A program made the translations under genes and the position numbers. Positions 7,236 to 23,176 of a stretch of 25,647 nucleotides of DNA are shown one piece after another. The DNA is taken from positions 1 through 25,647 of the IMG/VR virus record IMGVR_UViG_3300021961_000571. One strand, 5' to 3'. The notes below the pieces were generated by a model that saw nothing but the letters and a program-made list of their open reading frames with translations, was not told where the DNA came from and did not search any database. Each line of letters starts with the position of its first letter. Within the stretch, counting starts at the first letter, position 1. The DNA comes from a virus.

Positions 7236-9647
7236 TCATGAGTACAAGTACGGGTTTGACCCAATGAGTCCCACCTGCAGCGTGCCGACATAAGGAGGCT
7301 CAGGCAGCGGGATCCCAGTCACCAACTGGACTTCTTCCCTGAATACAGCCAGCCAGTTGGTCCGAAACATGCCTGCGTAACCGTGCAGCAAACTCGTATG
7401 AAGGACTGTTGCATCTCCCATATGAGTTGCGAAGCAGTCGTGATTCGTGAGCAGCGGCATCCCGAGCGATACACCCCTCTGGATGATCTGCTGGCACAGG
7501 GCCGCATCGAAGCCATGGGTGAAGTTGGCGCCGATGCCCTTGTTCGCCTGCGTTGCTGACAGCGGGGCGTCGATCGGCTGGTCCTGCATCGTGATGCTGA
7601 TCTTTTTGCCGAACAGCAGCGTCTCCACCCTGCGCCTGGTGGGCTCCCGGTCGGCCAGCCGCATGGGCCAGCCCATTGGTGTTGTCCACTCCAGGGGATA
7701 GCCCGCCGTCATCACCTTGCGGCACACCTGCTTGAGCCACTTCTTCACCTCCAAGCAGGGCGCCACCTCCTGCTTGAGCTCGGCCCACAGGTGGCTGGCG
7801 AGGTACTTGCTGGGAACGGCTACCCGGTAGGCGTATTCATCCAGCGGCACGTAGCCCAGGTGTCGATCGAGGGCATCCACCAGCCCATCGCAGAGGCTCA
7901 TGTAGCTGCCCCCGTAGGGCGTCGCCAGCACCGGCCCCTTCACCAGGCCGCGGTCGATGCCACGGGCCAGCCAGAGCTCAGCCAGTGCCCTCTCCTTCTC
8001 GTCGCCCAGCTCCAGGTCGGCGGTCAACCGCTGCACCACCTTCTCGGCGATCACCGTGTAGAGATCGCGGGGCGTGGTGCCGAAGACGTTGCACAGGCGG
8101 GCTGTCTTGGCGTCCCGCACAAGCGTCGCCAGGATCCCGCAGCCACTGGTGGTCTGGTCAAAACGGATCGGCACCCCGCTGTAGCCCGTGTCCAGTGCCT
8201 GCTTCAGCCCGCGGCATAGCTGCAGGAACTGCCAGGGATCCTTGGCTCCACGCCATAGCTCCAGCCGGCCCAGCGGGTCCTCGGCCGCGGCAACCATGGC
8301 GTCCTTGGCCTTCTCCCCCCACCGCAGGCGCTCATGCCAATGGTCACGGCTCAGGCCGTAGTGCCCTGCTGCTGCCTTGAGGATCCACTGGATCCCCTCG
8401 TCGGTGGCCGGGGCCTGCTGCTCAAACGACAGCAGCGACTTCTCGGTGTCCGGTCCTTGGTGCGTGCAGTATTTGTTGCCCGTGTAGATCCGGCCTCTGT
8501 GGTCTGCGTGGTACGCCTGCCAGACGGTGCGGCCGGCCAGCTCCTCAGCCATCTGCAGCGCTCGCTCGATCCGCACTCGCCGGACCCTGTTCTGCTCGCG
8601 GTCTCGGTGGGCCATGGCTGCCAGTCGGTTCCGGGTGCGCAGCTCCTCTGCTGTGGGGCTGTCGCCCAGGCGCTCGGGTACTTCCATCGGCGCCCTGCCG
8701 CAGGGGAACAGGCCGTCGATGCCGTTCTCCCAGGCCGTGCGCTGCAGCTGCACCATCTCTGCGTCCACCACCAGGGGCGTGGCCTGCAGGTGGTTGATCC
8801 CATCAACAAAGACAGAGAGGTCGGCCTCTCGGTAGTGATCAATGGCGCTGCCGTCCTTCTCCTCGTTGTCCTGGATCGGCACCCGGATGATGCACTCCTC
8901 ATTGCCCAGCACCCCGCCGCCATAGAGGGTTGGCCACGCCACGGGAGGACAGACCATGGCCGAGTGCGCCACGCTGTAGACCCGCTGCGGGCAGTTGCGA
9001 ATGAACTCCTCAGCCTCTGCTGTGGGCAGCACGAAGCGGGGGCTGGTCCTGCCCACCCGATGCTTGACCACCCGCAGCAAGGGCAGCGACTGCAGGATGT
9101 GATCGAGCAGGAACCGTCCAACGTGCAGCCGCGAGAGGTCGTTCCATGCGGGGATGGGGCAGCCCAGCTCCTGCATCACCTGCTTGCTGGCCAGCCGCCT
9201 GCGGCTCATGCCCTCACGCATCAGTCGGCGAAGCTCAAGCGGGCTCTTCTTGTCGAGCCGCATCAGCCGCGTCTCGTCCTCGATCGCCTTGCCCAGGTTC
9301 TGACAGAAGGTGGGCAGCCGCTGCTTGCGGCTTAGCTGGTCGATCGTCGCCACCAGGCCGACCGCTGCAATGTGATGCACCCCCTTGAAGGGATCAAAGA
9401 AGGGGATCGCTGCGCCATTGACCCTGGCCTTGGTCGGGTCCAGCAGGAAGTCCTCGAACGTGCTCTCTAAGGCCGCGGCCAGGTCTTCAAGGAACCGGCT
9501 GTAGAGCTCCTGGCCGTAGGGCAGGGCTGACTCCTTGCCCAGCTCCTTGATCCGGCGATGGCTCGATGCGTTGGCCTGCCTTGCTCTGTCTTCCGCCTTC
9601 CTTTGTCTTGCAAGTTGCTCGTCTTGCGGACTGCGGAACACTTGCAT
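7236..9647 (-). CDS. T7-like single-subunit DNA-dependent RNA polymerase
   Basis: 803 residues (T7 gp1 is 883). Conserved elements in order: DHRGRIY (382-388); motif A Asp497 in RFDQTTSGCG; motif B Arg566, Lys570 and Tyr578 in RGLVKGPVLATPYGG with the exact T7 spacing (R627, K631, Y639); GANFTHGFDAAL with His711; motif C His736-Asp737 in TNHDCFATHMGD. All catalytic residues are present, so the enzyme should be active and transcribe phage genes from its own promoters. The C-terminus is NPYLYS rather than T7 FAFA. The ATG at 9647 has no Shine-Dalgarno, and the first codons lie within the CTTGCA repeat region. It is the first gene after integrase and tRNA-Leu in the leftward direction. Confidence 0.95.
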   Translation of the reverse strand: MQVFRSPQDEQLARQRKAEDRARQANASSHRRIKELGKESALPYGQELYSRFLEDLAAALESTFEDFLLDPTKARVNGAAIPFFDPFKGVHHIAAVGLVATIDQLSRKQRLPTFCQNLGKAIEDETRLMRLDKKSPLELRRLMREGMSRRRLASKQVMQELGCPIPAWNDLSRLHVGRFLLDHILQSLPLLRVVKHRVGRTSPRFVLPTAEAEEFIRNCPQRVYSVAHSAMVCPPVAWPTLYGGGVLGNEECIIRVPIQDNEEKDGSAIDHYREADLSVFVDGINHLQATPLVVDAEMVQLQRTAWENGIDGLFPCGRAPMEVPERLGDSPTAEELRTRNRLAAMAHRDREQNRVRRVRIERALQMAEELAGRTVWQAYHADHRGRIYTGNKYCTHQGPDTEKSLLSFEQQAPATDEGIQWILKAAAGHYGLSRDHWHERLRWGEKAKDAMVAAAEDPLGRLELWRGAKDPWQFLQLCRGLKQALDTGYSGVPIRFDQTTSGCGILATLVRDAKTARLCNVFGTTPRDLYTVIAEKVVQRLTADLELGDEKERALAELWLARGIDRGLVKGPVLATPYGGSYMSLCDGLVDALDRHLGYVPLDEYAYRVAVPSKYLASHLWAELKQEVAPCLEVKKWLKQVCRKVMTAGYPLEWTTPMGWPMRLADREPTRRRVETLLFGKKISITMQDQPIDAPLSATQANKGIGANFTHGFDAALCQQIIQRGVSLGMPLLTNHDCFATHMGDATVLHTSLLHGYAGMFRTNWLAVFREEVQLVTGIPLPEPPYVGTLQVGLIGSNPYLYS

Positions 9648-9846
9648 GGGCTTGCAGCACGGCTTGCAGCTGCAAGTTATCCACTACGCGGGTGTAGACC
9701 CACCCTTAATAACGCCGCAGGCCTGTGGAACTGTTGCTCTGCAGGGGTGTAGACACCATCCACTGCGGATTTTAAGAGCACAGAGGCGGCTGCCCTGCAA
9801 GGGGTCTGGTCTCAACTTGCAGGAGCTTGCTTGCACTTGCTGCAAG
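9607..9846 (-). repeat. Iteron-like CTTGCA/TGCAAG repeat cluster
   Basis: CTTGCA or its complement occurs ten times in 240 bp (starting at 9607, 9609, 9641, 9651, 9663, 9671, 9796, 9816, 9830, 9841). About 0.1 would be expected by chance. Some copies form palindromes: CTTGCAAG at 9607-9614 and CTTGC-TGCAAG at 9836-9846. The cluster starts inside the RNA polymerase N-terminal codons and runs to 36 bp before tRNA-Leu. Two related elements sit between: GGGT-GTAG-ACCC (9690-9701) and GGTGT-AG-ACACC (9746-9757), sharing GTGTAGAC. Candidate roles are a replication origin, arm-type integrase sites of attP, or operators for RNA polymerase expression. Confidence 0.7.
9677..9685 (+). promoter_or_regulatory. 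DnaA-box-like sequence TTATCCACT
   Basis: TTATCCACT differs from the bacterial DnaA box consensus TTAT(C/A)CACA only in the last base. Weaker relatives in the opposite orientation lie at 9858-9866 (TGTGGACTC) and 9867-9875 (TGTGGACTT), a direct tandem 9-mer just outside the tRNA 3' end. These occur within or beside the CTTGCA cluster and fit an origin, but could also be integrase arm sites. Confidence 0.35.
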
Positions 9847-9881
9847 TTTCTAAAAGCTGTGGACTCTGTGGACTTTTTCTA

Positions 9882-9965
9882 TGGGACCAGAGGGACTTGA
9901 ACCCTCACCTCCGTACGGAGAACGCATTTTAAGTGCGGCGCGTCTACCAATTCCGCCATGGTCCC
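9882..9965 (-). tRNA. tRNA-Leu(UAA): tRNA-Leu (anticodon UAA), complete and intronless
   Basis: A full 84-nt tRNA. The acceptor stem GGGACCA/TGGTCCC has 7 bp with discriminator A73 at 9882. The D arm contains GAATTGGTAGACGC. The anticodon loop CTTAAAA gives anticodon UAA. The long class II variable arm TTCTCCGTACGGAG identifies Leu. The T arm is GAGGG-TTCAAGT-CCCTC. The 27-43 pair of the anticodon stem is a C-U mismatch. CCA is not encoded. Unlike many cyanobacterial tRNA-Leu(UAA) genes it has no group I intron. It lies 14 bp beyond the integrase stop on the same strand. Confidence 0.93.
9882..9965 (-). other. Candidate phage attachment site (attP) within tRNA-Leu
   Basis: Tyrosine integrases commonly use tRNA genes, and attP normally lies beside int. 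In the cyanopodovirus P-SSP7 a segment identical to part of host tRNA-Leu was reported downstream of int. The same arrangement is seen here with a whole tRNA. The core crossover cannot be placed without the host attB sequence. The repeats at 9796-9875 could be one arm. Confidence 0.45.
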
Positions 9966-9979
9966 GTGCCGGCATCCTC

Positions 9980-11008
9980 TCACCAGGAGGAGGAGCTGGC
10001 GACCAGTGCCTCGTAGCAGTCATCCAAGCGGCTCGTATCCATGTGGATGTAGCGCTCGCAGGTCTTGGTCCCCCGGTGGCCGAGCCAGGCCGCGATCTGC
10101 AGCGTCGTCCTACCGGCCATGCCCATACGAGTGCCGCAGGTGTGCCGTAGCTGGTGGATGGGGCGAGGGATGCTGATGTCGCACATCTGCATCGCCCTCT
10201 CTACCTGCCAGTTGAAGGCGTCATAGGTGATGTTCCATACGCGCAGCCGAGGGGATGGCGGCATGTATGGCGTGATCGCGTCAATGGCCCGGGGCGTCAT
10301 GCGCAGGACCCTGTTGCCCTCCTTGTTGTCCCGCTTGGCCTTGAAGAACTCGACCACGCCTTTCTTGAGATCAACGTGCTTGCCGAGGATGCGCTCGCAC
10401 TCGCTGAAGCGCGGGCCCATCTCCACCATGAAGACGACCAAGGCCTCCTCCTGGTGGTGGCCGCGGCGGCGCAGGTTGTCGCAGACCATGCGCAGCTCGT
10501 CTGGCGTCCAGATCCGCTCTTGGATGTTGTCTGCCGTGAGCCGCTGCTTGGCAAGCGGTGGCAGGGACATGGCCCCGCCCTCCTTGATGGCTGCCTCGCG
10601 CATCAGGTTGAGCTTGCAGAGCTTGTTTTTGATGGTCGAGGCGGCGTTGTCCTTGCGCTTCAGGTGCTCGACCAGCCTCTCAACGTCCTTAGCCGTGATC
10701 TCCTGCACGGGCGTGCTCATGCCGAAGAACTCAGCCACCTCGCGGGCATAGATCAAAGAGCTGCGCTCGCTGCGCATCCCCTCGAAATGGGCCTCCAGGT
10801 AGGGCATGGCGTCGGCCACCGTGTAGCCCTGACGCTTGCGGCGTGGTGTGTGCGGCTCTGGCGCGCGCAGCAGATCAGCCAGGCGTTGTTCTGCGTGCTT
10901 TTTGCTGTCGCAGTACAGCTGGCTGCGCTTGCCGTCGTCGAAATGAACGTTGAGAACCCACTGGCCATTCGACCGGTGGGTGATCCTCCATTGAACGGGG
11001 GCTGTCAT
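9980..11008 (-). CDS. int: Tyrosine-family site-specific integrase
   Basis: 342 residues. An N-terminal arm-binding/SAM-like region (about 60-150, with YTVADAMPYLEAHF and TAKDVERLVEHLKRK) precedes the catalytic domain. Active-site residues: Arg200 (MGPRFSECERI), Lys223 or Lys225 (FFKAKRDN), His285 and Arg288 (IHQLRHTCGTRM), His311 (AAWLGHRGTKT) and nucleophile Tyr320 (CERYIHMDT). All are intact, so it should be active. It catalyses integration and probably excision at the adjacent tRNA-Leu. No excisionase is recognised. An ACCACGACCA motif lies 31 nt upstream of the start, overlapping the stop of the regulator gene. Confidence 0.93.
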   Translation of the reverse strand: MTAPVQWRITHRSNGQWVLNVHFDDGKRSQLYCDSKKHAEQRLADLLRAPEPHTPRRKRQGYTVADAMPYLEAHFEGMRSERSSLIYAREVAEFFGMSTPVQEITAKDVERLVEHLKRKDNAASTIKNKLCKLNLMREAAIKEGGAMSLPPLAKQRLTADNIQERIWTPDELRMVCDNLRRRGHHQEEALVVFMVEMGPRFSECERILGKHVDLKKGVVEFFKAKRDNKEGNRVLRMTPRAIDAITPYMPPSPRLRVWNITYDAFNWQVERAMQMCDISIPRPIHQLRHTCGTRMGMAGRTTLQIAAWLGHRGTKTCERYIHMDTSRLDDCYEALVASSSSW

Positions 11009-11039: not shown

Positions 11040-11049
11040 TGGTCGTGGT
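11040..11049 (-). promoter_or_regulatory. ACCACGACCA motif upstream of integrase
   Basis: A perfect copy of the leftward leader motif. It overlaps the last base of the stop codon of the 11049-11369 regulator and lies 31 nt before the integrase ATG. Confidence 0.45.
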
Positions 11050-11369
11050 TAAGCGACCGCGGCCAGTGCCCTCTTCACTGCTGCTCCCTTCTTGCTGAGG
11101 CGGACGAGGTATCGCCGCCCCTCGCGTGGGTCAATCACGACTTCCACGATGCCAAGGCAGGACTTGCGGTGTCGGGCGTGTTCGCCAAGCGAGTTGACGA
11201 TCCGACTGGCCGAGGCGTTGCTTATCTCGAAGCGGTCCTGTATCTGCTTGTACGTGCAGGCCTCCTCTTGCGCAATGAAGAGGAACACTTGCGCGTGATG
11301 GAGCGGCAGAGCGCCCGGATCCAGAGACCCGAGAACCTCCAAAGCTCTGTCCAGTTGATCCAAATCCAT
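11049..11369 (-). CDS. MarR-like winged helix-turn-helix regulator
   Basis: 106 residues. A winged-helix domain fills most of the protein: HAQVFLFIAQEEACTYKQIQ, then DRFEISNASASRIVNSLGEH as recognition helix, and a beta wing IVEVVIDPREGRRYLVRLSK, then KGAAVKRAL. The DPREGRR wing and LSKKG end are typical of the MarR family. It lies directly upstream of int in the same direction and may control integrase expression or the lysis-lysogeny choice. A related protein is encoded at 11533-11886. ATG 11369 was taken as start; a coupled upstream frame overlaps it. Confidence 0.75.
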   Translation of the reverse strand: MDLDQLDRALEVLGSLDPGALPLHHAQVFLFIAQEEACTYKQIQDRFEISNASASRIVNSLGEHARHRKSCLGIVEVVIDPREGRRYLVRLSKKGAAVKRALAAVA

Positions 11370-14913: not shown

Positions 14914-15028
14914 GCGTCCTTCTTTATATGTCTACTCCTGAGTACGCGGGGGGGTTTTATCGAGGTAACAGATCGAGGAGTGCTGCGGGGGTGTAGCGTC
15001 CTTCTAGTTATGTCTACGCAGGAGTAGG
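14914..15028 (+). repeat. Two copies of a 33-bp element before the first rightward gene
   Basis: Copies at 14914-14946 and 14996-15028 share GCGTCCTTCT, three variable bases, TATGTCTAC, four variable bases, then GAGTA. The first copy contains the palindrome TACTC-CT-GAGTA. Both point rightward and the second ends 6 bp before the candidate start of the winged-helix gene. They are candidates for promoters of the phage RNA polymerase, or for operators of that regulator. Confidence 0.6.
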
Positions 15029-17686: not shown

Positions 17687-17784
17687 TTTTACGCCCTCGT
17701 AGCCCTGTTTCACCCACTATGGCGGCTAAAGCTGGGCCGTAACAGCGTTAATGGGTACGCTTACAACGTCTACGACGCCGCAGA

Positions 17785-17976
17785 GTGGGCCTGCTACCCC
17801 CTATCGACGACAGACTGGTCGCCGAACTGGCGCAGCAGTTCCCTGACCGGGCTCCATCGCTTGATTTGAGCGAAAAAGAGGTCTGGTTTCGCGCTGGTCA
17901 GGTGTCTGTCGTGCGCTGGTTAGAGCGGTTAGCGGCAGATCAGCGGCAAACCCTGTTTTCAGAGGAGGTGTCCTGA
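17785..17976 (+). CDS. Conserved-looking 63-residue phage protein
   Basis: GTG 17785, no clear Shine-Dalgarno. VAELAQQFPDRAPSLDLSEK, EVWFRAGQVSVVRWLERL has the (F/L)P-R-P...S-.E.WF.AGQ.SVV..L pattern I associate with short proteins of T7-like marine phages near the portal, function unknown. Its TGA overlaps the ATG of the first MC-type protein, and its last codons supply that gene's AGGAGG. Confidence 0.6.
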   Translation: MGLLPPIDDRLVAELAQQFPDRAPSLDLSEKEVWFRAGQVSVVRWLERLAADQRQTLFSEEVS

Positions 17977-23136: not shown

Positions 23137-23176
23137 TTGTCTTGCAGAATGAGCACTACAAGGCTGTAGTGGTCAG

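Follow-up and report, generated by a model that had tools for sequence, protein, structure and literature searches.

The window analysed here, a virus record of 25,647 nucleotides (25.6 kb) taken at its full length, belongs to a T7-like (Autographiviridae) phage. Its RNA polymerase (RNAP) is 71% identical to that of S37-C6, an uncultured Mediterranean phage among the closest named relatives, and 55% identical to that of S31-C1, likewise an uncultured Mediterranean phage; Synechococcus phage S-SRP02 (37%) comes after these two. Picocyanobacteria are the presumed hosts, on the basis of GC content, kinship and tRNA matches. The order on the minus strand is MarR-like regulator, integrase (int), tRNA-Leu(UAA), a 234-bp gap and RNAP. 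The features of the locus are listed below.

7236..9647, minus strand: T7-like single-subunit RNA polymerase, 803 aa (PHROG RNA polymerase, 4.7e-128; Pfam RNA_pol, 9e-46)
9607..9614, no strand assigned: CTTGCAAG palindrome within the first RNAP codons, an arm site or a coding constraint
9641..9676, no strand assigned: P' arm, four CTTGCA arm-type sites (9641, 9651, 9663, 9671), +97 to +127 from the core
9677..9685, plus strand: DnaA-like TTATCCACT; its minus strand is the AGTGGATAA tail of E2
9682..9698, minus strand: E2, TCTACACCCGCGTAGTG, second candidate phage-RNAP promoter, 55 bp from E1
9737..9753, minus strand: E1, TCTACACCCCTGCAGAG, candidate phage-RNAP promoter (alignment with relatives, genome-wide motif)
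9763-9776, minus strand: candidate attP core CTTAAAATCCGCAG, 14 bp, an exact match to the anticodon loop and 3' stem of Cyanobiaceae tRNA-Leu(UAA)
9770-9776, minus strand: proposed overlap region, the 7-nt loop CTTAAAA
9796..9846, no strand assigned: P arm, four CTTGCA arm-type sites (9796, 9816, 9830, 9841)
9857..9874, minus strand: tandem GTCCACAGAGTCCACAG by the tRNA 3' end, resembling the right arm of the core in relatives
9882..9965, minus strand: complete tRNA-Leu(UAA) (ARAGORN; Rfam tRNA, 59.3 bits), which folds as a tRNA
9980..11008, minus strand: int, tyrosine integrase, 342 aa (Pfam Phage_integrase, PF00589, 1.5e-10)
11049..11369, minus strand: MarR-like winged-helix regulator just upstream of int, co-occurring with int in relatives

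Ten CTTGCA/TGCAAG hexamers, all within 9607-9846 (240 bp), form the cluster described in the original prediction, and counts in the window and in shuffled sequence bore it out. Elsewhere in the window no 240-bp stretch held more than 2, and 200 dinucleotide-preserving shuffles gave at most 4 per 240 bp (mean 2.4). CTTGCA was also the most clustered hexamer of the window (10; in 30 shuffles no hexamer exceeded 8). The cluster had been described as intergenic, with tRNA-Leu on one flank. The tRNA was confirmed by ARAGORN and Rfam, and the intergenic placement holds in part: the cluster includes the predicted RNAP start codon (9647), which the P' arm overlaps, and the 9607-9614 palindrome falls in RNAP codons. 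The tandem CTGTGGACT pair (9857-9874) and the two GTGTAGAC elements (9682-9698 and 9737-9753) are present as reported.

Four CTTGCA sites lie on either side of the 14-bp core, which is placed between tRNA-Leu and RNAP, 157 bp downstream of the phage tRNA's own anticodon loop. This copy of the host anticodon loop between the halves of the cluster had been missed, as had the probable function of the tRNA as a replacement; the copy supports the earlier suggestion that the region is the arm region of attP. The flanks of the core do not match host tRNA-Leu, and the shared stretch of 14 bp would be too short to rebuild the host gene. The host Leu(UAA) pattern occurred once per matching genome, and the host tRNA-Met gene was present in one copy in nearly all genomes. 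When the tandem TGTGGACT pair and the TTATCCACT box were set against the right arm of the core, clade by clade, they resembled that of their own core, with 28 mismatches versus a mean of 41.5 for swapped cores (3 of 2000 swaps were as low as the own core, the rows being related). On this resemblance they may act as additional sites, core-type or accessory.

The region was compared with 80 RNAP-matched viral loci and four annotated records, classes being assigned only to loci with a readable int-RNAP gap. In class A (21 loci and P-SSP7), to which most of the distant relatives belong, the gap holds a tRNA-Leu or tRNA-Met 5' half that runs as far as the anticodon loop; class B (the window and 24 loci) has a complete tRNA and a bare core of 9-17 bp; class C (12 loci) has another or an unrecognised target, and in four of its members (L006, L007, L035 and L039) the core is the start of pdxJ. 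The tRNA 5' halves occupy the same place as the core of the window, with arrays on their flanks. The original prediction would have been weakened by repeats that were not conserved in relatives of the same gene order; the array was found to be kept in place, and its sequence differs between clades. The repeated hexamer is particular to each large clade (CTTGCA/TTGCAA, TGCAAA, TCTGCA/GCAGAC, GCGTCC, GCATCC and others), and even with different motifs the offset of the right-hand sites from the core stays near +97 to +127. The position of the first right-hand site varied by an SD of 2.9 bp when measured from the core, versus 10.0 bp when measured from the RNAP start. Loci of the L063 group have int 1.9 kb away, with the array and half tRNA still together beside RNAP. 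No comparable array was found upstream of RNAP in int-less relatives, which also form a separate RNAP clade, nor was the MarR-like regulator found in them.

In the int-RNAP gaps of L035 (759-810), L006 and L039 a copy of the opening pdxJ codons (M-S-LGVNLDHIAKV) is flanked by the array, which suggests that these phages integrate at the 5' end of pdxJ in the host. The gaps of L023, L027, L028, L030, L032, L033, L036 and L082 contain arrays or repeats in which neither a tRNA nor a pdxJ core could be recognised; for L082, the closest named relative, the core gave no convincing host target. Extra genes lie between int and attP in L063 (3437-4900) and L084 (15187-16234), with KilA-N in S-SRP02, so adjacency of int and attP is not obligatory.

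In an alignment of 30 relatives, the R, R, H/G and Y columns of the integrase were invariant. The AlphaFold2 model (mean pLDDT 85.6) has a beta-beta-beta-alpha N-terminus (residues 1-47) joined by a flexible linker (50-59) to the core-binding and catalytic body, and its fold matches in the PDB include full-length lambda integrase chains. An Int_N domain was recognised at low stringency in 7 of 28 relatives; for the protein of the window Pfam gives no such domain. The N-terminal domain, predicted from the model, would be the arm-binding domain. With lambda-type tyrosine integrase systems the window shares the catalytic domain, the predicted separate N-domain and two-sided arm sites at fixed spacing, and we infer that the CTTGCA sites are the arm sites of this integrase. 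In a Mantel-type test, no covariation was found between motif and whole-Int identity, and motif similarity followed integrase identity less closely than the identity of RNAP and MarR. Since the test did not favour Int, Int is no more than a putative binder of the CTTGCA sites.

The same correlation speaks for another view of the array, raised in the original prediction, namely that it is an operator array controlling RNAP; the binder of such an operator/promoter region would be the MarR-like protein or phage RNAP. The GTGTAGAC elements E1 and E2 point the same way. They align at equivalent places in relatives and are part of a genome-wide intergenic motif: with a profile built from the relatives, 10 of the 14 top sites in the window were intergenic (p = 1e-7), as were 8 of 14 sites in S31-C1 and, among the matches listed, 7 of 11 in S37-C6. 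The motif resembles the Syn5 RNAP promoter ATTGGGCACCCGTAA, found within a primer given in PMC6395800, and in phage LUZ100 a phage promoter precedes RNAP (PMC10134795). Given these likenesses E1 and E2 are probably phage-polymerase promoters; a MarR operator is the alternative for them. A scan for sigma-70 promoters found none. The CTTGCA sites, however, flank the host-tRNA core, keep register with it rather than with RNAP, and within the window are clustered only at 9607-9846. The operator/promoter reading does fit E1 and E2, a motif different from CTTGCA, and as an account of the whole array we regard it as quite improbable. Near-palindromes of the CTAC-N5-GTAG type, often just upstream of genes, were seen at 9682-9698, 9737-9753, 23154-23170, 2746-2762, 17769-17785 and 14981-14997.

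An origin of replication, made up of iterons and a DnaA box, had also been proposed, and the short clustered repeats, the TTATCCACT box and a somewhat lower local GC content are in keeping with it. The box is indeed present at 9677-9685, but it is of a one-mismatch type expected about 16 times per window in shuffles. In the tRNA-Met phages the AGTGGATAA tail is replaced by CGAATAA, so TTATCCACT is not a conserved DnaA box. The cumulative GC-skew curve is flat at 9.5-10.5 kb, with no inflection at 9.6-9.9 kb; the array is absent from int-less relatives, and the repeat sequence differs between clades while the matches to host tRNA persist. The origin was rejected on the box, unconserved and at chance level, and on the missing skew inflection, and we hold it to be extremely improbable.

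The anticodon stem of the phage tRNA-Leu (GCACTTAAAATGC) differs from the host stem by compensatory changes, and as a result the phage gene matches the host there over only 9 bp. Phages with a bare core carried a full tRNA of the core isotype in 25 of 25 cases (3 Leu, 22 Met), a count that omits three L063-group loci in which the first 'tRNA loop' was a chance match and no tRNA is held. All 33 loci of classes A and C lacked a complete tRNA. For this contrast with the bare-core phages the Fisher p was 6e-17, which is overstated because the loci are related. L006, which has a pdxJ core and no tRNA, pairs with the tRNA-Met phage L005 as its sister in the RNAP tree. The phage tRNA-Met genes showed compensatory change in 11 of 20 pairs, with 99.5% of cells paired. 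From these comparisons the phage tRNA-Leu looks like a spare for a host tRNA broken by insertion, and a bare core with a maintained full tRNA fits the tRNA-dependent lysogeny of PMC10865867. Alternatively, the region could be attP and the tRNA-Leu a relic of imprecise excision, as proposed for a tRNA-Leu next to int in T7-like phages (PMC10134795), or a translation helper of the kind that many phages carry. Against either origin, the core isotype was matched in 25/25 and full tRNAs were lacking (0/33) where the target is self-restoring or not a tRNA, and the tRNA-Met set covaries as maintained genes do, not as in decay. A tRNA that is not a replacement is thus unlikely.

Taken as a whole, the region is most likely the attP of a temperate-type T7-like picocyanobacterial phage with a bare core and a spare tRNA. 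In the proposed mechanism, the N-terminal domain of the integrase would bind the CTTGCA arm sites on both sides and bend the DNA, and CTTAAAA of the anticodon loop would recombine with the identical 7 nt in the host tRNA-Leu(UAA) gene. With a shared core of 14 bp only, insertion would break the host tRNA without restoring it, and the complete phage tRNA-Leu beside int would replace the host copy. In the integrated form the host tRNA-Leu 5' half would be joined to GTGGATGGTGTCTACACC, RNAP would follow the promoter and 5' half of the host tRNA, and int and the phage tRNA would lie at the opposite end from RNAP. For the attP of the window we infer protein binding, strand exchange, tRNA rescue and lysogeny on these grounds. 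Integration itself might also be the lysogeny switch, an idea that we put forward tentatively and hold to be rather doubtful. The attP is inside the leftward unit early genes-marR-int-tRNA-RNAP, and insertion would cut RNAP from upstream early transcription and leave it at the prophage's far end, downstream of a host tRNA promoter, with the phage tRNA sustaining the host. If so, the 5'-end targets used across the family (tRNA-Leu, tRNA-Met and pdxJ) would reflect selection for promoter exchange.

Host tRNA-Leu is the integration site of P-SSP7 and S-TIP37, and for S-TIP37 int and attP are required; stable lysogens were not obtained for the T7-like cyanophages studied (PMC8776855). As in the window, their attP is located downstream of int and shares sequence with host tRNA-Leu (PMC8776855). 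P-SSP7 shares the marR-int-attP-RNAP order and a similar core-RNAP distance, and differs in having a tRNA-Leu 5' half instead of a bare 14-bp core with a complete tRNA. The latter arrangement recalls mycobacteriophages such as Fionnbharth, LeBron and Gaia, which show tRNA-dependent lysogeny (PMC10865867). They have a tyrosine integrase, a host-tRNA core (8-17 bp), a cognate phage tRNA and putative arm sites beside the core, but belong to another phage family and infect another host phylum; the self-restoring relatives hold a tRNA 5' half in the cyanophages here and a 3' half in mycobacteria. The short host-tRNA core and same-isotype tRNA are both found in the window; by analogy, dependence of the lysogen on the phage tRNA is putative.

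For Autographiviridae prophages like Mesorhizobium phage vB_MloP_Lo5R7ANS a replacement tRNA was reported (PMC12429752). Compared by gene order, this T7-like phage has the same regulator-int-tRNA-Leu-RNAP arrangement, except that its tRNA is separated from int by two additional genes and from RNAP by three, and its host is alphaproteobacterial. The T7-like Pseudomonas phage LUZ100 (PMC10134795) also has a MarR-int operon, a tRNA-Leu next to int and a phage-specific promoter before RNAP; there the tRNA is upstream of int and was read as an excision relic. The present analysis would extend tRNA-replacing integration to cyanophages and allows half tRNA, full tRNA and pdxJ target to be compared within one family, natural comparisons by which the origin of phage tRNAs and the lysogeny of T7-like cyanophages become directly testable. 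It also gives a sequence-level attP map for the uncultured T7-like phage group G9, whose host could not be assigned (PMC3861242), and points to picocyanobacteria as hosts.

An RNAP search of 400 Cyanobiaceae genomes found no integrated form; close copies were present in five, none integrated where this could be judged, and the phage contigs that could be judged had int and RNAP side by side. Two junction patterns searched in viral contigs gave no match. An integrase scan gave no match in genome contigs and only two loci, both already known, in viral contigs. In L028 (3407-3709) a second, diverged MarR-like gene lies upstream of the first. The RNAP search also returned distant relics in Cyanobiaceae chromosomes and contigs (L217-L237), T7-like RNAP genes of about 22-27% identity, some with internal stops, which are probably relic prophages or other mobile elements.
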